Assembly (NCBI RefSeq): GCF_013003985.1
Contig: NZ_CP053073.1
Span: 3,844,001 to 3,908,000, forward strand
DNA: 64,000 bases
Origin: Usitatibacter palustris
GTDB taxonomy: Bacteria > Pseudomonadota > Gammaproteobacteria > Burkholderiales > Usitatibacteraceae
Direction: 5' to 3'
This document shows, piece by piece, positions 38,137 through 43,525 of the stretch (position 1 is its first letter; every line of letters starts with the position of its first letter). The notes beneath the pieces were generated by a model that was not told where the DNA came from, did no database searches, and worked only from the letters and a program-made list of their open reading frames with translations. The position numbers and the translations under genes were made by a program.

Positions 38137-39033
38137 ATGGCCTGGCAACGCGTGCGGCTGGTTGTCGAAGGCCGCCATGCCCAGCAGCTCGCCGAGGCGC
38201 TCGAGGGCGCGGGCGCGCTTTCCACCGAACTCACCGATGCCGACGCGGGCACTCCCGAGGAGTCCGCCGTCTTCGGCGAACCGGGCTCCGAAGCGTCGGT
38301 CTGGGCGCGTTGCTGCGTCGGTGCGCTGTTTGCGGGCGACGCGAATGCCGCCGCGGCGATCGATGCCGCGCTCGACGAGAGTGGCGTTCCGACGCTGTCG
38401 GCCGCCTCGCTCGATCGCCTCGAGGACGCGGACTGGGTCGCCGAAACGCAGCGCCAGTTCGAACCGATCCGCGCCGGCACGAAACTCTGGATCGTCCCCA
38501 CGTGGCACGAGGCACCCGATGCGAGCGGCGTGAACATCGTGCTCGATCCAGGCGCGGCCTTCGGAACGGGCAGCCATCCCACGACGCGCCTGGTGCTCGG
38601 GTTTCTCGAGCGCACGGTGAGCGCGGGCGACAACGTGCTCGACTACGGTTGCGGCTCGGGGATCCTCGCGATCGCCGCGCTCAAGCTGGGTGCGGGTAGC
38701 GCCATGGGTGTCGACATCGATCCGGCCGCGCTCGAAACCGCACGCTACAATGCGGCGCGAAACGGCGTGACGCTCGAACTCGTGCCCGCCGACAAGACGC
38801 TCGCTGCGCAATACCGGATCACGGTCGCCAACATCCTCGCCAATCCCCTTCGAATGCTGGCCCCCTTGCTCGCAACGCACACCGCTCCCGGAGGCCACAT
38901 CGCACTGTCGGGCATCCTCGCTTCGCAGGTCGATGAGGTGACGCTCGCCTATGCACCCTGGAGCGATCTCGCGGTCGAAGGTGAAGAGGAGGGCTGGGTG
39001 TTGCTCGCAGGAACGAGGAAAGCCGGATGCTGA
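38137..39033 (+). CDS. prmA: Ribosomal protein L11 methyltransferase
   Basis: 298 residues. The substrate-recognition domain (about 1-90) is followed by the SAM domain: GAAFGTGSHPTTRLVL, LDYGCGSGILAIAALKLGA, GVDIDPAALE and VANILANPLRML. It trimethylates L11 in the cytoplasm. A common neighbour of accBC. The zinc-ribbon gene starts 7 bases before its stop. Confidence 0.95.
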   Translation: MAWQRVRLVVEGRHAQQLAEALEGAGALSTELTDADAGTPEESAVFGEPGSEASVWARCCVGALFAGDANAAAAIDAALDESGVPTLSAASLDRLEDADWVAETQRQFEPIRAGTKLWIVPTWHEAPDASGVNIVLDPGAAFGTGSHPTTRLVLGFLERTVSAGDNVLDYGCGSGILAIAALKLGAGSAMGVDIDPAALETARYNAARNGVTLELVPADKTLAAQYRITVANILANPLRMLAPLLATHTAPGGHIALSGILASQVDEVTLAYAPWSDLAVEGEEEGWVLLAGTRKAGC

Positions 39034-39881
39034 TCACCACCTGCACGCATTGCCTCGCGCGCTTTCGCGTGACGCCGCAGCAGTTGAACCTGCGGCAGGG
39101 GCAGGTGCGCTGTGGAAGTTGCCAGACCGTGTTCAGCGGCTTCGAGGCGCTCGAGCGTTTCCCGGACGATGACACCGGCACGCGGATCCTCGCGGCGCGT
39201 GCCGCGGCCGCCGCTGGAGGCGCGCACGGCGAAGCACTCCCCTCCGGAGCGGCTCCGATTGCCGATCTTCCCGACGAGGGCGTTCCCGAAGTCGCCGATG
39301 AGGTCGCGCGCACGCCGGCCGCGGCGGCGGAACCCGCGGCCGAGCGCCCCCGGGTACAGCCGCCGGTGTCGCCATTGATCTTCGAGGAACCCGCGCCGCC
39401 GCCGCGTCCGTCGCGCGCGTGGGTCTTCGGCTGCGCCCTGATGGCGGTGTTGCTCGTGGTACAGCTCGCCTATGCCTTCCGTTCGGAGCTCGCGCAGGCC
39501 TATCCGGTTTCGCGGCCGTTCCTCGAATCGGTTTGCGCGTCAGCCGGTTGTTCGGTGCCGTGGGTGAATGACGCCGCGCGCCTGAAGCTCGAGGACTCCG
39601 AACTGCTCGAGGTTCCCGGCCGTCCGCAGGAGATCGCGCTCGGCGCACGCATCCGCAACCTCGCGCCGGTGTCGCAGGAATTCCCGCACATCGAGCTCAC
39701 GCTCACGGATCTTTCGGGACAGGCGGCCGCGCGACGCATCTTGCGGCCCGTCGACTACCTGGGCCGCGCGCCCGCACCGAGCGAGGCGATGTCCGCGGGC
39801 TCCGAGCTCGCAATCCAGTTGCGCCTCGAGACGCCGCGCATCAAGGCCACGGGCTACGAGCTGCAGCTCTTCTACCCGTAG
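39027..39881 (+). CDS. Zinc-ribbon DUF3426 membrane protein
   Basis: 284 residues. N-terminal MJ0042-type zinc ribbon (CTHCLARFRVTP, then CGSCQTVFSGFEAL), a disordered Pro/Ala/Glu-rich linker (about 60-120), one membrane segment (WVFGCALMAVLLVVQLAYAF), and a periplasmic DUF3426 domain that contains a Cys pair around CASAGCSVP. Function unknown; it is a regular companion of prmA in betaproteobacteria. It overlaps prmA by 7 bases and converges on the DUF1631 gene. Confidence 0.85.
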   Translation: MLITTCTHCLARFRVTPQQLNLRQGQVRCGSCQTVFSGFEALERFPDDDTGTRILAARAAAAAGGAHGEALPSGAAPIADLPDEGVPEVADEVARTPAAAAEPAAERPRVQPPVSPLIFEEPAPPPRPSRAWVFGCALMAVLLVVQLAYAFRSELAQAYPVSRPFLESVCASAGCSVPWVNDAARLKLEDSELLEVPGRPQEIALGARIRNLAPVSQEFPHIELTLTDLSGQAAARRILRPVDYLGRAPAPSEAMSAGSELAIQLRLETPRIKATGYELQLFYP

Positions 39882-39892
39882 CGAAACCGGCT

Positions 39893-42178
39893 TCAGGCCG
39901 CGCGGGCGTTCTCGAGCATCGAATCCACGGCGCGACCGACCAGCGGGCCGGTGTCGATGATGCGTGCCTCGCCCTGGCGAAGCTGCTCGGCGAGCGCCTC
40001 GGGTGAAATCGAGATCGCGCTCTCCGACTCGTTCGCATTCGTGAACAGGTAGACGCCCTTCGCCGGGCTGATCCAGGTGAGGCGCGCGCGAATCACCGGT
40101 GCGCCCAGCGGCATGAACTCGACCCAGGTTCCGCGCGGCAGGTTGGTCCACACACCCGTGCGCGTGAAGACGTTGCGCACCATGCCCTTCGTGCGCGGCG
40201 TATTGAGGCGAATCTCCTGGACCTGCACGCCGCCCGCGGGGAGGACGGTGCGCTCGATACTCGGCGCAACCGGAAGCTCCGGTGCCGCTGACGGCCCATC
40301 CGGAACGATCGCCATTCCACGCAACCCCGCCCTCACGGCATTGGCGTGGCAATCGACGAGCGAACCCAGGAAGAGGTCGCGCCCCTCGATCGGCGTGTCG
40401 GCGCGCAGCATGCCTTCCTGCAGCTGCTTGAGCATCGACGGCAGCATCGTGACCAGGCGCTTGCGGTCATCGGCCGCCGCCTTGGGCTCGACGCTCCAGA
40501 GCAGATCCTCGAGCGTGTGCAGCAGCGACTGCCACGGGGGCGATCCCTCGCCCTCCGTGAGGTGCACGTTCGCGAGCGCGCGGACCCAATGGGTGTTGAG
40601 CATCTCGCGCACCGGCGCGGGAACCCACGCGCGCACTTCCAGGCGGCGGGCCACTTCGTCCTCGGCGGTGAGGCGCGCGATTTCCTGGCGCTCGCGTTCC
40701 TCGATGTAGCGCGACGAACGCTCGACGATGAGCTCTTCGGTCTTGCGCTGGTTCTCGATGAACGCGTCGACCTCGGAGATGAGGCGCACGAAGAGCGTGA
40801 CGTCGGTGTCGAACTCCGTGAGCACCGTGTGGACCGTGGCTTCGATCATGTCGACCGAGGCCGCGCCCTTCGCGCTGCGCTCGTCGAGGCCCATCGCCGC
40901 TTCCGCGAGGCGGTCGATCAGGCGGCGCGTCGGATGCTCCTTCGACGAGAAGAATTCCTTGTCGAGCAGGGCCACCTTGAGCGTCGGGATCTGCAGGCGC
41001 GAGAGGATCGCCTTCACGTTCCCCGGGATCTGCGGGTCGTCGAAGATGTAGTCGAAGATCATCGCGACGACGTCGATCGTCATCGAGTCGATCGAGGTGA
41101 GCGAAGCGCTGCCCGGAGCGACCTTCAGTGCACGAAGGACGTTGACGACCAGCGCCTCGCCCCCCGCGGGTACGGCCACCTCGCCACCATCGCGATGCAT
41201 GCGCGTGAGCTCGGTAACGAACGCCTGGGGCGCGGCCACGCCTGGGATCGTAGGCCACACCAGGGTCCCGTTACCGGCTCCGGCGGCGGAGGGTGCTCCC
41301 GCGGCGGGGCCGCTCAAGCCTCCCTGAGGCTGAGAACCTAGAAACTGGGCAAGACTGCGAAAGACATCGACATCGGATCCGGGTGCGGCGGGGGCTCCGC
41401 TCCTGCCTCCGGCGGAACCACCAGTCGCTCCAGGCGCGCCGCTCGCGCCCTTGGGGCGCTGCGCCGAAGGCGCGTTCTTGCGCGCCACGGGACGGATCTC
41501 CGGCAGGATCTGGCGCTGCACGAGATGCGCGTTGAGGTCGTGGTAGACGTTGTGCAGATCGGCCGTCACGTAGCTTTCGAACTGGCGCATCAGCGCCATC
41601 CGAACCTTGAAGCCGGCCTCGACCTGGCCACACGCGTCCTTGAGGGCCGCGCAGAACGTCGCGGGTGAAAGCGGATTCGCGTCGTCCTTGAGCTCGGGCC
41701 GGTCCATGAGGAAGCCGAAGCGCTGCGAGAGCGCGAAGAGCTCGCTCTCGCACGAGTTGGACATCTTGCGCGCCATCTCGGAGGCGGCAAGCGTGCCCTC
41801 GAGATCCTCGTCGCCGACGAGCGAAAGCTCACCCATTTGCGACGATGTCGCGGCCGCACTTTCGCCGCGCACCTTGCGATTGAAGAATTCGACGAACTGG
41901 CGCCGGAATGCGGCTTCGATGGTCGGGCGCTTTTCGCGCGCGACGGCGCGCGCATCGAGGTAGACGTTCTGGGCTTCGCGATCGTGCGACTTCTCGGCCA
42001 TCTCGAAGAGGTCGTCTTCGATGCGGTCGAACATTCCCGAGAGCGACGATGCGATGCGGTCGAGCGCGAGCTCGCGGCAATCCTTGAGGACGCCCGCGGT
42101 CTCCTGCGGTGAGAGTCGTGAGCGTGCCCGGGAGTGATCTCCCAGCGACACCACTTTGCCGTTCGTCGCGTTCGCCAT
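39893..42178 (-). CDS. DUF1631 protein under a c-di-GMP riboswitch
   Basis: 761 residues, mostly helical, of the DUF1631 family (NATNGKVVSLGDHSRARS then CRELALDRIASSLSGMFDRI at the N terminus). A low-complexity Gly/Ala/Ser linker (about 265-320) separates the N- and C-terminal parts. The last 120 residues are beta-rich (RNVFTRTGVWTNLPRGTWVE, LTWISPAKGVYLFTN), like a small barrel; this resembles PilZ-type folds but lacks their clear motifs, so that is only a suggestion. The DUF1631 function is unknown. The ATG chosen has AAGGGG eight bases upstream, and the frame upstream of it runs through the riboswitch, so an earlier start is unlikely. Confidence 0.85.
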   Translation of the reverse strand: MANATNGKVVSLGDHSRARSRLSPQETAGVLKDCRELALDRIASSLSGMFDRIEDDLFEMAEKSHDREAQNVYLDARAVAREKRPTIEAAFRRQFVEFFNRKVRGESAAATSSQMGELSLVGDEDLEGTLAASEMARKMSNSCESELFALSQRFGFLMDRPELKDDANPLSPATFCAALKDACGQVEAGFKVRMALMRQFESYVTADLHNVYHDLNAHLVQRQILPEIRPVARKNAPSAQRPKGASGAPGATGGSAGGRSGAPAAPGSDVDVFRSLAQFLGSQPQGGLSGPAAGAPSAAGAGNGTLVWPTIPGVAAPQAFVTELTRMHRDGGEVAVPAGGEALVVNVLRALKVAPGSASLTSIDSMTIDVVAMIFDYIFDDPQIPGNVKAILSRLQIPTLKVALLDKEFFSSKEHPTRRLIDRLAEAAMGLDERSAKGAASVDMIEATVHTVLTEFDTDVTLFVRLISEVDAFIENQRKTEELIVERSSRYIEERERQEIARLTAEDEVARRLEVRAWVPAPVREMLNTHWVRALANVHLTEGEGSPPWQSLLHTLEDLLWSVEPKAAADDRKRLVTMLPSMLKQLQEGMLRADTPIEGRDLFLGSLVDCHANAVRAGLRGMAIVPDGPSAAPELPVAPSIERTVLPAGGVQVQEIRLNTPRTKGMVRNVFTRTGVWTNLPRGTWVEFMPLGAPVIRARLTWISPAKGVYLFTNANESESAISISPEALAEQLRQGEARIIDTGPLVGRAVDSMLENARAA

Positions 42179-42265
42179 GGTCGCAGCCCCTTGGGGTCGC
42201 CCAAACCGGGGAGGAACGCGAAGTCGGGGATGGCGAGAGGCCGCCCGGATGGGCGACGGTGGAGC

Positions 42266-42284
42266 GATCGGCCGGGGGCCGATC
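42266..42284 (-). promoter_or_regulatory. Hairpin downstream of the riboswitch aptamer
   Basis: Perfect 8-bp stem GATCGGCC / GGCCGATC with a 3-base loop, 12 bases 3' of the aptamer on the minus strand. No T run follows, so as expression platform it might act in a Rho-dependent or translational manner. The DUF1631 Shine-Dalgarno (AAGGGG) also sits next to CCCC, a possible local pairing partner. Confidence 0.55.
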
Positions 42285-42294
42285 CCACGAATCT

Positions 42295-42385
42295 CTGGCA
42301 ATCCCGCTGTCGTAGGGCCTTTGAACGGCACCCTTTAGACCGGTGACTTTGCGCCCCCACCTTTCGATGGGTTTGCCCTGTTTCA
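42295..42385 (-). ncRNA. Cyclic-di-GMP-I (GEMM) riboswitch aptamer
   Basis: On the minus strand the leader of the DUF1631 gene matches the GEMM-I consensus: CAGGGCAAACC, a 6-bp stem CCCATC / GGTGGG closed by a GAAA tetraloop, then GGCGCAAAGTCACCGG, TCTAAAG (tetraloop-receptor side), a variable hairpin, and CAGCGGGATTGCC at the 3' end. 5' GGCAA can pair with 3' TTGCC to close the outer helix. The order and spacing of these blocks match RF01051 members such as Vc2. It ends about 118 bases before the ATG. Which way it switches cannot be read directly. Confidence 0.9.
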
Positions 42386-42408
42386 GGTGTTTCGTGTGCG
42401 CCACGGGT

Positions 42409-42440
42409 GGTATCGGTCGTACTGGCGACAACCTGATACC
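42409..42440. promoter_or_regulatory. Imperfect 32-base inverted repeat in the divergent promoter region
   Basis: GGTATC at one end and GATACC at the other, with additional inner symmetry (GGTCG / CAACC-like). It lies just upstream of the riboswitch on one side and 150 bases before the PfkB-kinase start on the other. It is placed where an operator for either gene would be. Confidence 0.4.
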
Positions 42441-42592
42441 TACATCAATACTGGTCCTACGCTCGCGATGTTGCCGGAAGGCGACAAGAGGGTCAACGCC
42501 GCTTGTCGGCGCTGAGGCGCCGCACGTCTGGTTAGGTGAGTGCTTGCTCCAAGGTAGACTCTGCCTCGCAAAAACAGCTTGAGGCTTGCTCG
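42441..42592 (+). other. Leader of the PfkB-kinase gene, no gene seen
   Basis: Remainder of the 414-base gap between DUF1631 and the kinase. It holds a small hairpin at 42497-42511 (CGCCG / CGGCG) and GAGG about nine bases before the kinase ATG. I see no convincing promoter hexamers, tRNA or open frame of interest. Confidence 0.4.
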
Positions 42593-43525
42593 ATGACGAT
42601 CGTGGTCTGCGGTTCCCTCGCCTACGACACCATCATGGTGTTCGAGGGCCAGTTCCGGAAGCACATCCTCCCGGACAGGATTCACATCCTGAACGTGTCC
42701 TTCATGGTCCCGCAGATGCACCGGTACTTCGGGGGGTGCGCGGGCAACATCGCCTACAACCTGTGGCTGCTGGGTGACCAGCCGGCGATCATGGCCACCG
42801 TGGGCCACGACTTCAAGCCCTATGGCAAGCGCCTCAAGGAGTTGGGCCTGACGGACCGGCACGTGCGCCGCGTCGACGACCAGTTCACCGCCCAGGCCTT
42901 CATCACCACCGACCTCGAGGACAACCAGATCACCGCCTTCCATCCGGGGGCGATGATGTTCTCGCACCTGAACAAGATCGCCGACGCGCCGGAGGCGACG
43001 CTCGGCATCGTCTCCCCCGACGGCCGGGACGGGATGTTCGAGCACTCGCGCGGATTCGCGAAAGCCGGCGTACCGTACCTGTTCGATCCGGGCCAGGGCC
43101 TGCCCATGTTCTCGGGCGCGGACCTCCTGGAGCTGATCGCGCCCGCCAAGGCCCTCACGGTGAACGATTACGAGGCCCAGATCGTCGAGGAAAGGACGGG
43201 CAAGAAGGTGGCTGAGCTCGCGACGATGGTGGAGGCCGTCGTGGTCACCCGGGGCGCCGAGGGATCGATCGTCCATACCGGCGGTCAACAGATAGAGATC
43301 CCGTGCGTTAGGCCGGATGGAGTCGTCGATCCGACAGGCTGCGGGGATGCCTACCGCGCCGGCCTGCTGCATGGCCTTGCGAAGGGCTGGGACTGGGGCA
43401 AATCGGCCCGGCTCGCGTCGGTGCTGGGAGCCTTCAAGATCGCCCATCGCGGCGGCCAGAACCACCAGCCGACGCTCGAGAAGATCGCGGCGAAGTTCAA
43501 AGAGGAGTTTGGTGAATCGCTCTAG
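42593..43525 (+). CDS. PfkB-family carbohydrate/nucleoside kinase
   Basis: 310 residues. N-terminal VVCGSLAYDTIMVFEGQF, then GGCAGNIAYNLWLLG (substrate-binding Gly pair), VTRGAEGSI, and the catalytic DPTGCGDAYRAGLL with its Asp base. The pattern is closest to adenosine/ribokinase-type members of betaproteobacteria; the substrate cannot be fixed from sequence alone. Start taken at MTIVVCGSL; an upstream in-frame start would add 19 residues of unlike composition. The lipoprotein gene follows after 10 bases. Confidence 0.85.
   Translation: MTIVVCGSLAYDTIMVFEGQFRKHILPDRIHILNVSFMVPQMHRYFGGCAGNIAYNLWLLGDQPAIMATVGHDFKPYGKRLKELGLTDRHVRRVDDQFTAQAFITTDLEDNQITAFHPGAMMFSHLNKIADAPEATLGIVSPDGRDGMFEHSRGFAKAGVPYLFDPGQGLPMFSGADLLELIAPAKALTVNDYEAQIVEERTGKKVAELATMVEAVVVTRGAEGSIVHTGGQQIEIPCVRPDGVVDPTGCGDAYRAGLLHGLAKGWDWGKSARLASVLGAFKIAHRGGQNHQPTLEKIAAKFKEEFGESL

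Follow-up and report, generated by a model that had tools for sequence, protein, structure and literature searches.

Introduction

Does a c-di-GMP riboswitch govern a gene of the DUF1631 family, and if so, in which direction would it act? The question is raised by a 64-kb stretch of Usitatibacter palustris DNA (NZ_CP053073.1, positions 3,844,001-3,908,000), referred to here as the window, in which an RNA leader resembling a c-di-GMP-I (GEMM-I) aptamer precedes a DUF1631 gene. c-di-GMP is a signal known above all for its part in whether bacteria swim or live on surfaces, and the type example of the c-di-GMP-I family, RF01051, is Vc2 of Vibrio cholerae. In the literature searched, as far as the retrieved portions of its texts extend, DUF1631 was linked neither to c-di-GMP nor to a riboswitch; Weinberg 2007 and Sudarsan 2008, reportedly the founding GEMM papers, may mention the family. 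No such link was found in the excerpts consulted of PMC9481103, PMC9262584, PMC6274999, PMC10455584, PMC10155442, PMC10139004, and PMC12456836, and in the retrieved parts of full-text literature on DUF1631 (PF07793), the family occurred as table entries only.

Results

A c-di-GMP-I aptamer in the leader of the DUF1631 gene

A sequence-only reading of the window had assigned this leader to GEMM-I on the basis of ordered conserved blocks. These blocks, namely CAGGGCAAACC, a 6-bp stem with a GAAA cap, GCGCAAAG, CACCGG, TCTAAAG, and CGGGATTGCC, were all found in the proposed order on the minus strand, and the covariance search with RF01051 confirmed the assignment, with a match that covered model positions 1-87 of 87 and scored 76.5 bits, far above the gathering score of 35. 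Chance is excluded, because the E-value, computed for the 64-kb window and 4227 Rfam families, was 2.9e-13. RF01051 was the only Rfam family reaching its gathering score within the window (one overlapping match of the same clan with a lower score was omitted), and the aptamer is the single RF01051 match in the U. palustris genome. A custom aptamer model, R1, scored it at 95.2 bits, the window aptamer being among the 41 sequences of R1. P1, the helix that closes the aptamer, is present as CUG/CAG plus CACGAA/UUCGUG. Within this known class of riboswitches, the window aptamer is unremarkable. The coordinates of all features are collected in Table 1.

Table 1. Features of the DUF1631 gene and its leader, in window coordinates
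Feature	Position	Strand	Basis or description
DUF1631 gene, 761 aa	39893..42178	-	PF07793, 568.1 bits
Shine-Dalgarno-like AAGGGG	42187..42192	-	sequence; anti-SD duplex -6.8 kcal/mol
Anti-aptamer segment CUCU...AUCCC, predicted	42227..42239	-	minimum-energy folds
8-bp hairpin GATCGGCC-CCC-GGCCGATC	42266..42284	-	42284-42277 paired with 42273-42266, CCC loop
P1 3' strand, CAG then UUCGUG	42286..42297	-	sequence, covariation, enforced fold
c-di-GMP-I (GEMM-I) aptamer, full length	42294..42387	-	RF01051, 76.5 bits
Inner P1 5' strand CUG	42384..42386	-	pairs with CAG 42295-42297
Outer P1 5' strand CACGAA	42391..42396	-	complementary to UUCGUG 42286-42291; forms in aptamer-enforced fold

The downstream gene had also been read as DUF1631, and this identity was borne out by a PF07793 match over model positions 3-739 of 741 (gathering cut-off, 33.7 bits). 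The distance from the aptamer end to the gene is 115 nt. The neighboring DUF3426 gene (39027-39881, plus strand) is convergent with the DUF1631 gene, which is therefore the sole gene of its unit. Neither a sigma-70 promoter nor an intrinsic-terminator-like site was found in 42150-42620. A whole-genome domain search of U. palustris gave 23 GGDEF matches and one PilZ match; one of the GGDEF domains (178.8 bits) lies in the window at 2199-2678 on the minus strand, approximately 40 kb from the riboswitch.

Expected ligand of the aptamer

The pocket residues G20, A47, and C92 are all present in the window, at 42377, 42350, and 42298, respectively, in Vc2 numbering, which we take to apply to these positions. 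Family membership suggests that the window aptamer would bind c-di-GMP, and the presence of these three residues makes c-di-GMP rather than cGAMP the expected ligand. G20 and the equivalent of C92 are described in the available part of PMC6274999, which also gives G20A as the cGAMP-selective change. The 3',3'-cGAMP riboswitch (GEMM-Ib, Geobacter) shares the scaffold of the window aptamer, whereas the window lacks its G20-to-A change (PMC6274999, in the part available). Recognition of 3',3'-cGAMP or another dinucleotide is conceivable, since GEMM-I variants with such ligands exist, and c-di-GMP-I-GGC (RF03167) was the best Rfam match in six of 40 re-examined DUF1631 leaders and at the named locus L161. 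However, position 20 was G in 64 of 65 leaders, including the window, G20A was absent, and C92 is retained in the window aptamer, which together make a different ligand highly improbable. RF03167 belongs to the same clan, but the window aptamer fits RF01051 itself. The sole exception at specificity position 20 among the 65 leaders was L106:1272-1362 (G183), which carries C.

Pairing of the aptamer with DUF1631 across genomes

In the host's family, 20 of 28 genomes contained RF01051, exactly one match each, and in 18 of these 20 the aptamer was located directly upstream of a DUF1631 gene on the same strand. Seventeen of the 18 genes scored above 500 bits and one was cut by a contig end; in the remaining two genomes, a C-terminal DUF1631 fragment (G015) and a contig end (G017) followed the aptamer. 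Among the eight aptamer-less genomes of the family, three had no DUF1631 match and five had only matches below 338 bits. In the G015 case (G015:C281; L020/L045), the C-terminal DUF1631 piece stands alone 14 nt after the aptamer, owing to deletion or misassembly.

Across Burkholderiales (399 genomes), RF01051 was detected in 148 genomes and DUF1631 in 164. When the family and order surveys (414 distinct genomes) were joined, the aptamer was found directly upstream in at least 65 of 177 DUF1631 genomes, and these pairs were spread over 11 family codes. Fifty-five pairs came from joining 162 listed aptamers with 178 listed DUF1631 places, six from re-examined leaders, all best matched by RF03167, and four from genes behind other aptamers. 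The gap between the aptamer and the DUF1631 match was 91-390 nt, the one exception being a truncated gene 14 nt away. The leader element is thus conserved before DUF1631 orthologues, as a survey of related genomes proposed with the sequence-only reading was meant to establish.

DUF1631 was found in 94 of 274 sampled genomes of the class, and no upstream pair outside the order was seen among the matches listed for these 274 genomes, including 22 non-order genomes with both features. In one of the class genomes outside the order (G625), a c-di-GMP-I aptamer (C32:91911-91992) follows the DUF1631 gene on its strand at a distance of about 300 nt, and another genome of the class survey (G579) contained 15 c-di-GMP-I aptamer matches. 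Among 80 named DUF1631 loci from GTDB genomes, the custom model found an upstream aptamer in 32, with titles that included Sulfuricella, Sulfuriferula multivorans, Thiobacillus, Parasulfuritortus, Hydrogenophilus, Uliginosibacterium, and Candidatus Desulfobacillus denitrificans; by the same model, no upstream aptamer was found at the named loci of Chitinimonas, Parachitinimonas, Thiohalobacter, Sedimenticola, and Rhodanobacteraceae. One named locus (L155) begins at a contig end. Seventeen of the named loci were also run through Rfam, which recovered the aptamer in 16. In five leaders (L114, L117, L118, L122, and L139), two of which carry the aptamer and three of which lack it, DUF1631 is preceded by a tRNA gene of the same orientation, and the DUF1631 gene at G241:C1:3142166-3144466 contains two in-frame TGA codons.

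For 18 aptamers outside the pair table, the reading frame behind the aptamer was read in 17 cases: 11 frames had no Pfam match, and the others encoded one DUF1631 protein, two subtilases, a minor pilin, a PAS protein, and a glycoside hydrolase below threshold. Six more aptamers, for some of which DUF1631 was suspected, were followed by three DUF1631 genes, two subtilase genes, and one gene for a FecR protein. Subtilase genes directly behind aptamers (L053, L058, L238, and L240, in four Burkholderiales genomes) constitute a second recurrent target.

Association with one DUF1631 subfamily

Pfam DUF1631 (PF07793) is a wider family, and the riboswitch was seen with only part of it, within the order of the window. 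The listed genes were divided by score: at 500 bits or more, the aptamer was present before 57 of 84 genes, compared with 5 of 94 below 500 bits. The initial join of listed places had given 53 of 84 and 2 of 94, respectively. Re-examination of all 31 high-group leaders that had no listed aptamer (one of which, L125, is cut by a contig end) added four aptamers and that of nine low-group leaders added two; among further low-group leaders, ten yielded none, G180 yielded one, and 71 yielded none (six of these stretches being shorter than 900 bases). Four second pieces of already listed DUF1631 genes were left out of the 178 places, a contig end marks the start of G022:C249 in the low group, and the pairs in G408, G055, and G303 involve DUF1631 places beyond the 178. 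Of the five low-group pairs, two (G011 and G015) have a truncated gene, and in a third (G180) the gene was scored as two pieces.

A tree of 119 DUF1631 proteins (58 with the aptamer, 60 without, and one unjudged) required seven changes of the aptamer label, compared with 39.6 for shuffled labels, none of 500 shuffles being as low as seven; the tree is a quick, unrooted one with some long branches, in which gain and loss are not separated. Thirteen near-duplicate proteins and L213, which has an in-frame stop, were left out of it. The conclusion that the aptamer attachment is conserved and specific to one DUF1631 subfamily across betaproteobacteria is well supported. For this subfamily, the proposed tie between DUF1631 and c-di-GMP that had been suggested from the window is likewise well supported by the comparative evidence.

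Selection on the RNA

Across an alignment of 41 sequences, 11 of 20 aptamer pairs showed changes on both sides that kept the pair. The GAAA tetraloop on P2 was invariant in all 41 aptamers, and C45, C46, G48, T49, and C50 of P3, on the putative tetraloop receptor side, were also invariant across the alignment. Outer P1, for which the Rfam model holds no pairs, averaged 5.0 bp in 64 leaders compared with 3.43 +/- 0.12 when 3' strands were permuted (0 of 1000 permutations as high), a control that does not remove relatedness. The P1 sequence differs by lineage, with CUG/CAG, CUUA/UAAG, CAUUUG/CAAAUG, CCG/CGG, and GUGAU/AUCAC as its forms. L173, which contains Ns in its 5' part, was dropped from the P1 and switch counts.

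Modeled switching at the ribosome site

The unconstrained ensemble of every leader was set against a second ensemble with P1, P2, and P3 enforced and the three pocket bases kept unpaired. The set consisted of 62 leaders, with L157 (no reliable start) and L006 (no linker) dropped, and the start codons were set by rule, eight of them by hand. Enforcing the aptamer changed the openness of the SD/start region by a mean of -0.080, compared with +0.003 +/- 0.010 in 12 dinucleotide-shuffle sets and -0.009 +/- 0.014 in eight linker-exchange sets, in which natural linkers were swapped between dissimilar leaders. The region closed by more than 0.1 in 23 of the 62 leaders, compared with 2-8 in the shuffles and 5-13 in the exchange sets, and changed by at most 0.1 in 37. 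L010, L084, L146, and L192 are examples of leaders in which the modeled switch is strong. The linker overlap score, which reflects segments that pair with the SD when the aptamer is bound and with the aptamer when it is free, was 3.73, compared with 1.09 +/- 0.17 in the shuffles and 2.01 +/- 0.29 in the exchange sets, and the contrast with the shuffles persisted when leaders were clustered into 53, 43, or 33 groups. The 23 closing leaders and the overlap score of 3.73 match the prediction of a translational OFF switch, and the modeling tilts the balance in favor of this direction of control.

If the riboswitch were instead an ON switch, the ligand would free the ribosome site and DUF1631 would serve sessile life as an effector produced when c-di-GMP is high. 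Two leaders, L009 from the same genus and L014 from the same family, behaved in this way, opening by more than 0.1 with the aptamer enforced; however, two openers among 62 are at or below the controls (1-8 in the shuffles and 3-8 in the exchange sets) and stand against 23 closers, so that an ON switch appears unlikely. Within the genus, L010 was a clear OFF case (-0.35), L007 changed by -0.07, L008 combined a high overlap score with no net change, and L009 moved in the opposite direction (+0.12). In L006, the linker is absent and the start codon lies 17 nt after C92; its SD openness fell from 0.32 to 0.18 as a result of the overlap between the SD and the 3' strand of P1, and in this leader the ligand-stabilized P1 itself could cover the SD.

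The openness of the window leader changed from 0.33 to 0.24, within the range of its own shuffles, with an overlap score of 0.00. Its modeled state depends on the assumed 5' end: shorter 5' ends gave an openness of approximately 0.4 in either state, and a leader with 30 nt ahead of G20 gave a rise from 0.17 to 0.24. In the modeled free state, the predicted anti-aptamer segment pairs with AGAG (42293-42296) and GGGAU (42301-42305). The lack of a clear in silico switch in the window leader would be in keeping with an aptamer that is a relic or a separate small RNA without control over DUF1631, but the helices covary, the position before DUF1631 recurs with a gap of 91-390 nt in all cases bar one, and the aptamer and the high-scoring DUF1631 type are absent together in the family; we consider a relic or small RNA extremely improbable.

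Enforcing the aptamer cost a mean of 11.4 kcal/mol (shuffled linkers, 8.9; exchanged linkers, 10.6), and co-transcriptional folding is therefore only crudely represented by folding at equilibrium. A single fixed anti-aptamer motif was rejected, as no motif was general across the 62 leaders; moderately enriched motifs were the complement of GACGCA (14 of 62 leaders; 4.2 expected) and ATCCC (18 of 62; 9.5 expected).

The hairpin behind the aptamer and termination

The sequence-only reading had further proposed a perfect 8-bp hairpin behind the aptamer as an expression platform. The hairpin is indeed present, 12 nt past the GCC that ends the core and starting 9 nt beyond the end of the Rfam match, but the proposed role is unlikely. 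It formed in both modeled states of the window leader, free and aptamer-enforced, and no U-tract follows it, which makes it an unlikely switching part. Hairpins of 8-9 bp with other sequences occur at the same place in four leaders of the same genus (L007-L010), again in both modeled states. The hairpin is probably a spacer or an insulator. It was rejected as an intrinsic terminator, as no T-run lies behind it, and intrinsic termination was rejected across the leaders as well, none of 58 having more than seven consecutive T.

The same riboswitch might act through Rho-dependent termination, with the ligand exposing or hiding a stretch, rich in C and poor in G, that separates the aptamer from the ribosome site. 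The C-over-G skew averaged +0.107 in 58 leaders (26 above 0.1; six short leaders and L157 were left out of this count) and reached +0.44 in the best 60-nt stretch of the window leader, whereas 33 aptamer-less DUF1631 leaders, a control whose start codons are uncertain and whose genomic setting differs, averaged -0.043 (five above 0.1). However, skew by itself does not define a Rho site, and adapted pairing at the ribosome site is seen in the leaders as well; we regard Rho-dependent control as unlikely.

The DUF1631 protein

The AlphaFold2 model (761 aa, mean pLDDT of 84) consists of a long helical region and, at the C terminus, a small barrel. The search of PDB sequences revealed no relatives of DUF1631, the two hits having E-values of 0.7, and Foldseek gave no match at an E-value of 0.001 or better. 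VIA comparisons yielded Z values of at most 6.7 for the whole protein and 7.1 for the C-terminal part, which is the range of common arrangements. Fold matches of the C-terminal barrel were Tudor/KOW-like and other barrels, too weak to assign at these Z values (7.1 or below). PilZ, a c-di-GMP-binding domain considered for this barrel, was absent from the weak fold matches listed for DUF1631, and no Pfam PilZ match at an E-value of 1 or better was obtained among 46 DUF1631 C-terminal pieces. The NCBIfam name "PacR family" was not transferred to the protein, which scored 221.9 bits against a cut-off of 1200, and the PacR literature search returned nothing on DUF1631.

Discussion

A c-di-GMP riboswitch very probably acts on DUF1631. 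In the mechanism that we propose, the c-di-GMP-I riboswitch in the DUF1631 mRNA leader would sense c-di-GMP and set the amount of DUF1631 protein in cis. At low c-di-GMP, a linker segment would pair with the aptamer and the ribosome site would stay open; at high c-di-GMP, the aptamer and P1 would form, the freed linker would pair with the ribosome site, and translation would fall. DUF1631 would then be made chiefly at low c-di-GMP, for example, in planktonic or motile cells. Taken as a whole, this reading, which joins a c-di-GMP riboswitch on DUF1631, translational OFF control, and expression at low c-di-GMP, seems fairly probable to us.

The window aptamer shares with RF01051 (GEMM-I) the full-length model, the GAAA tetraloop, the P2/P3 architecture, the pocket residues, and the position in a 5' leader. 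It differs in its target, DUF1631, which was not linked to RF01051 in the literature searched; the novelty is this conserved target, not the aptamer. Its modeled platform acts at the ribosome site, unlike those of the Cd1 and pilM c-di-GMP riboswitches, which are described as transcriptional in the available part of PMC9262584.

The conserved riboswitch before one DUF1631 subfamily provides a testable handle on the role of an unstudied family. The collected leaders form a natural set for GEMM-I platforms that act on translation, and are useful in this respect because both platforms in the accessible portion of PMC9262584 are transcriptional. We tentatively suggest, as a possibility short of an even chance, that DUF1631 is a dedicated betaproteobacterial c-di-GMP output, in which the subfamily has long been under its own translational OFF switch and serves motile or planktonic life at low c-di-GMP. 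If the proposed reading is true, these leaders would represent a conserved, so far undescribed c-di-GMP regulon centered on the DUF1631 family.
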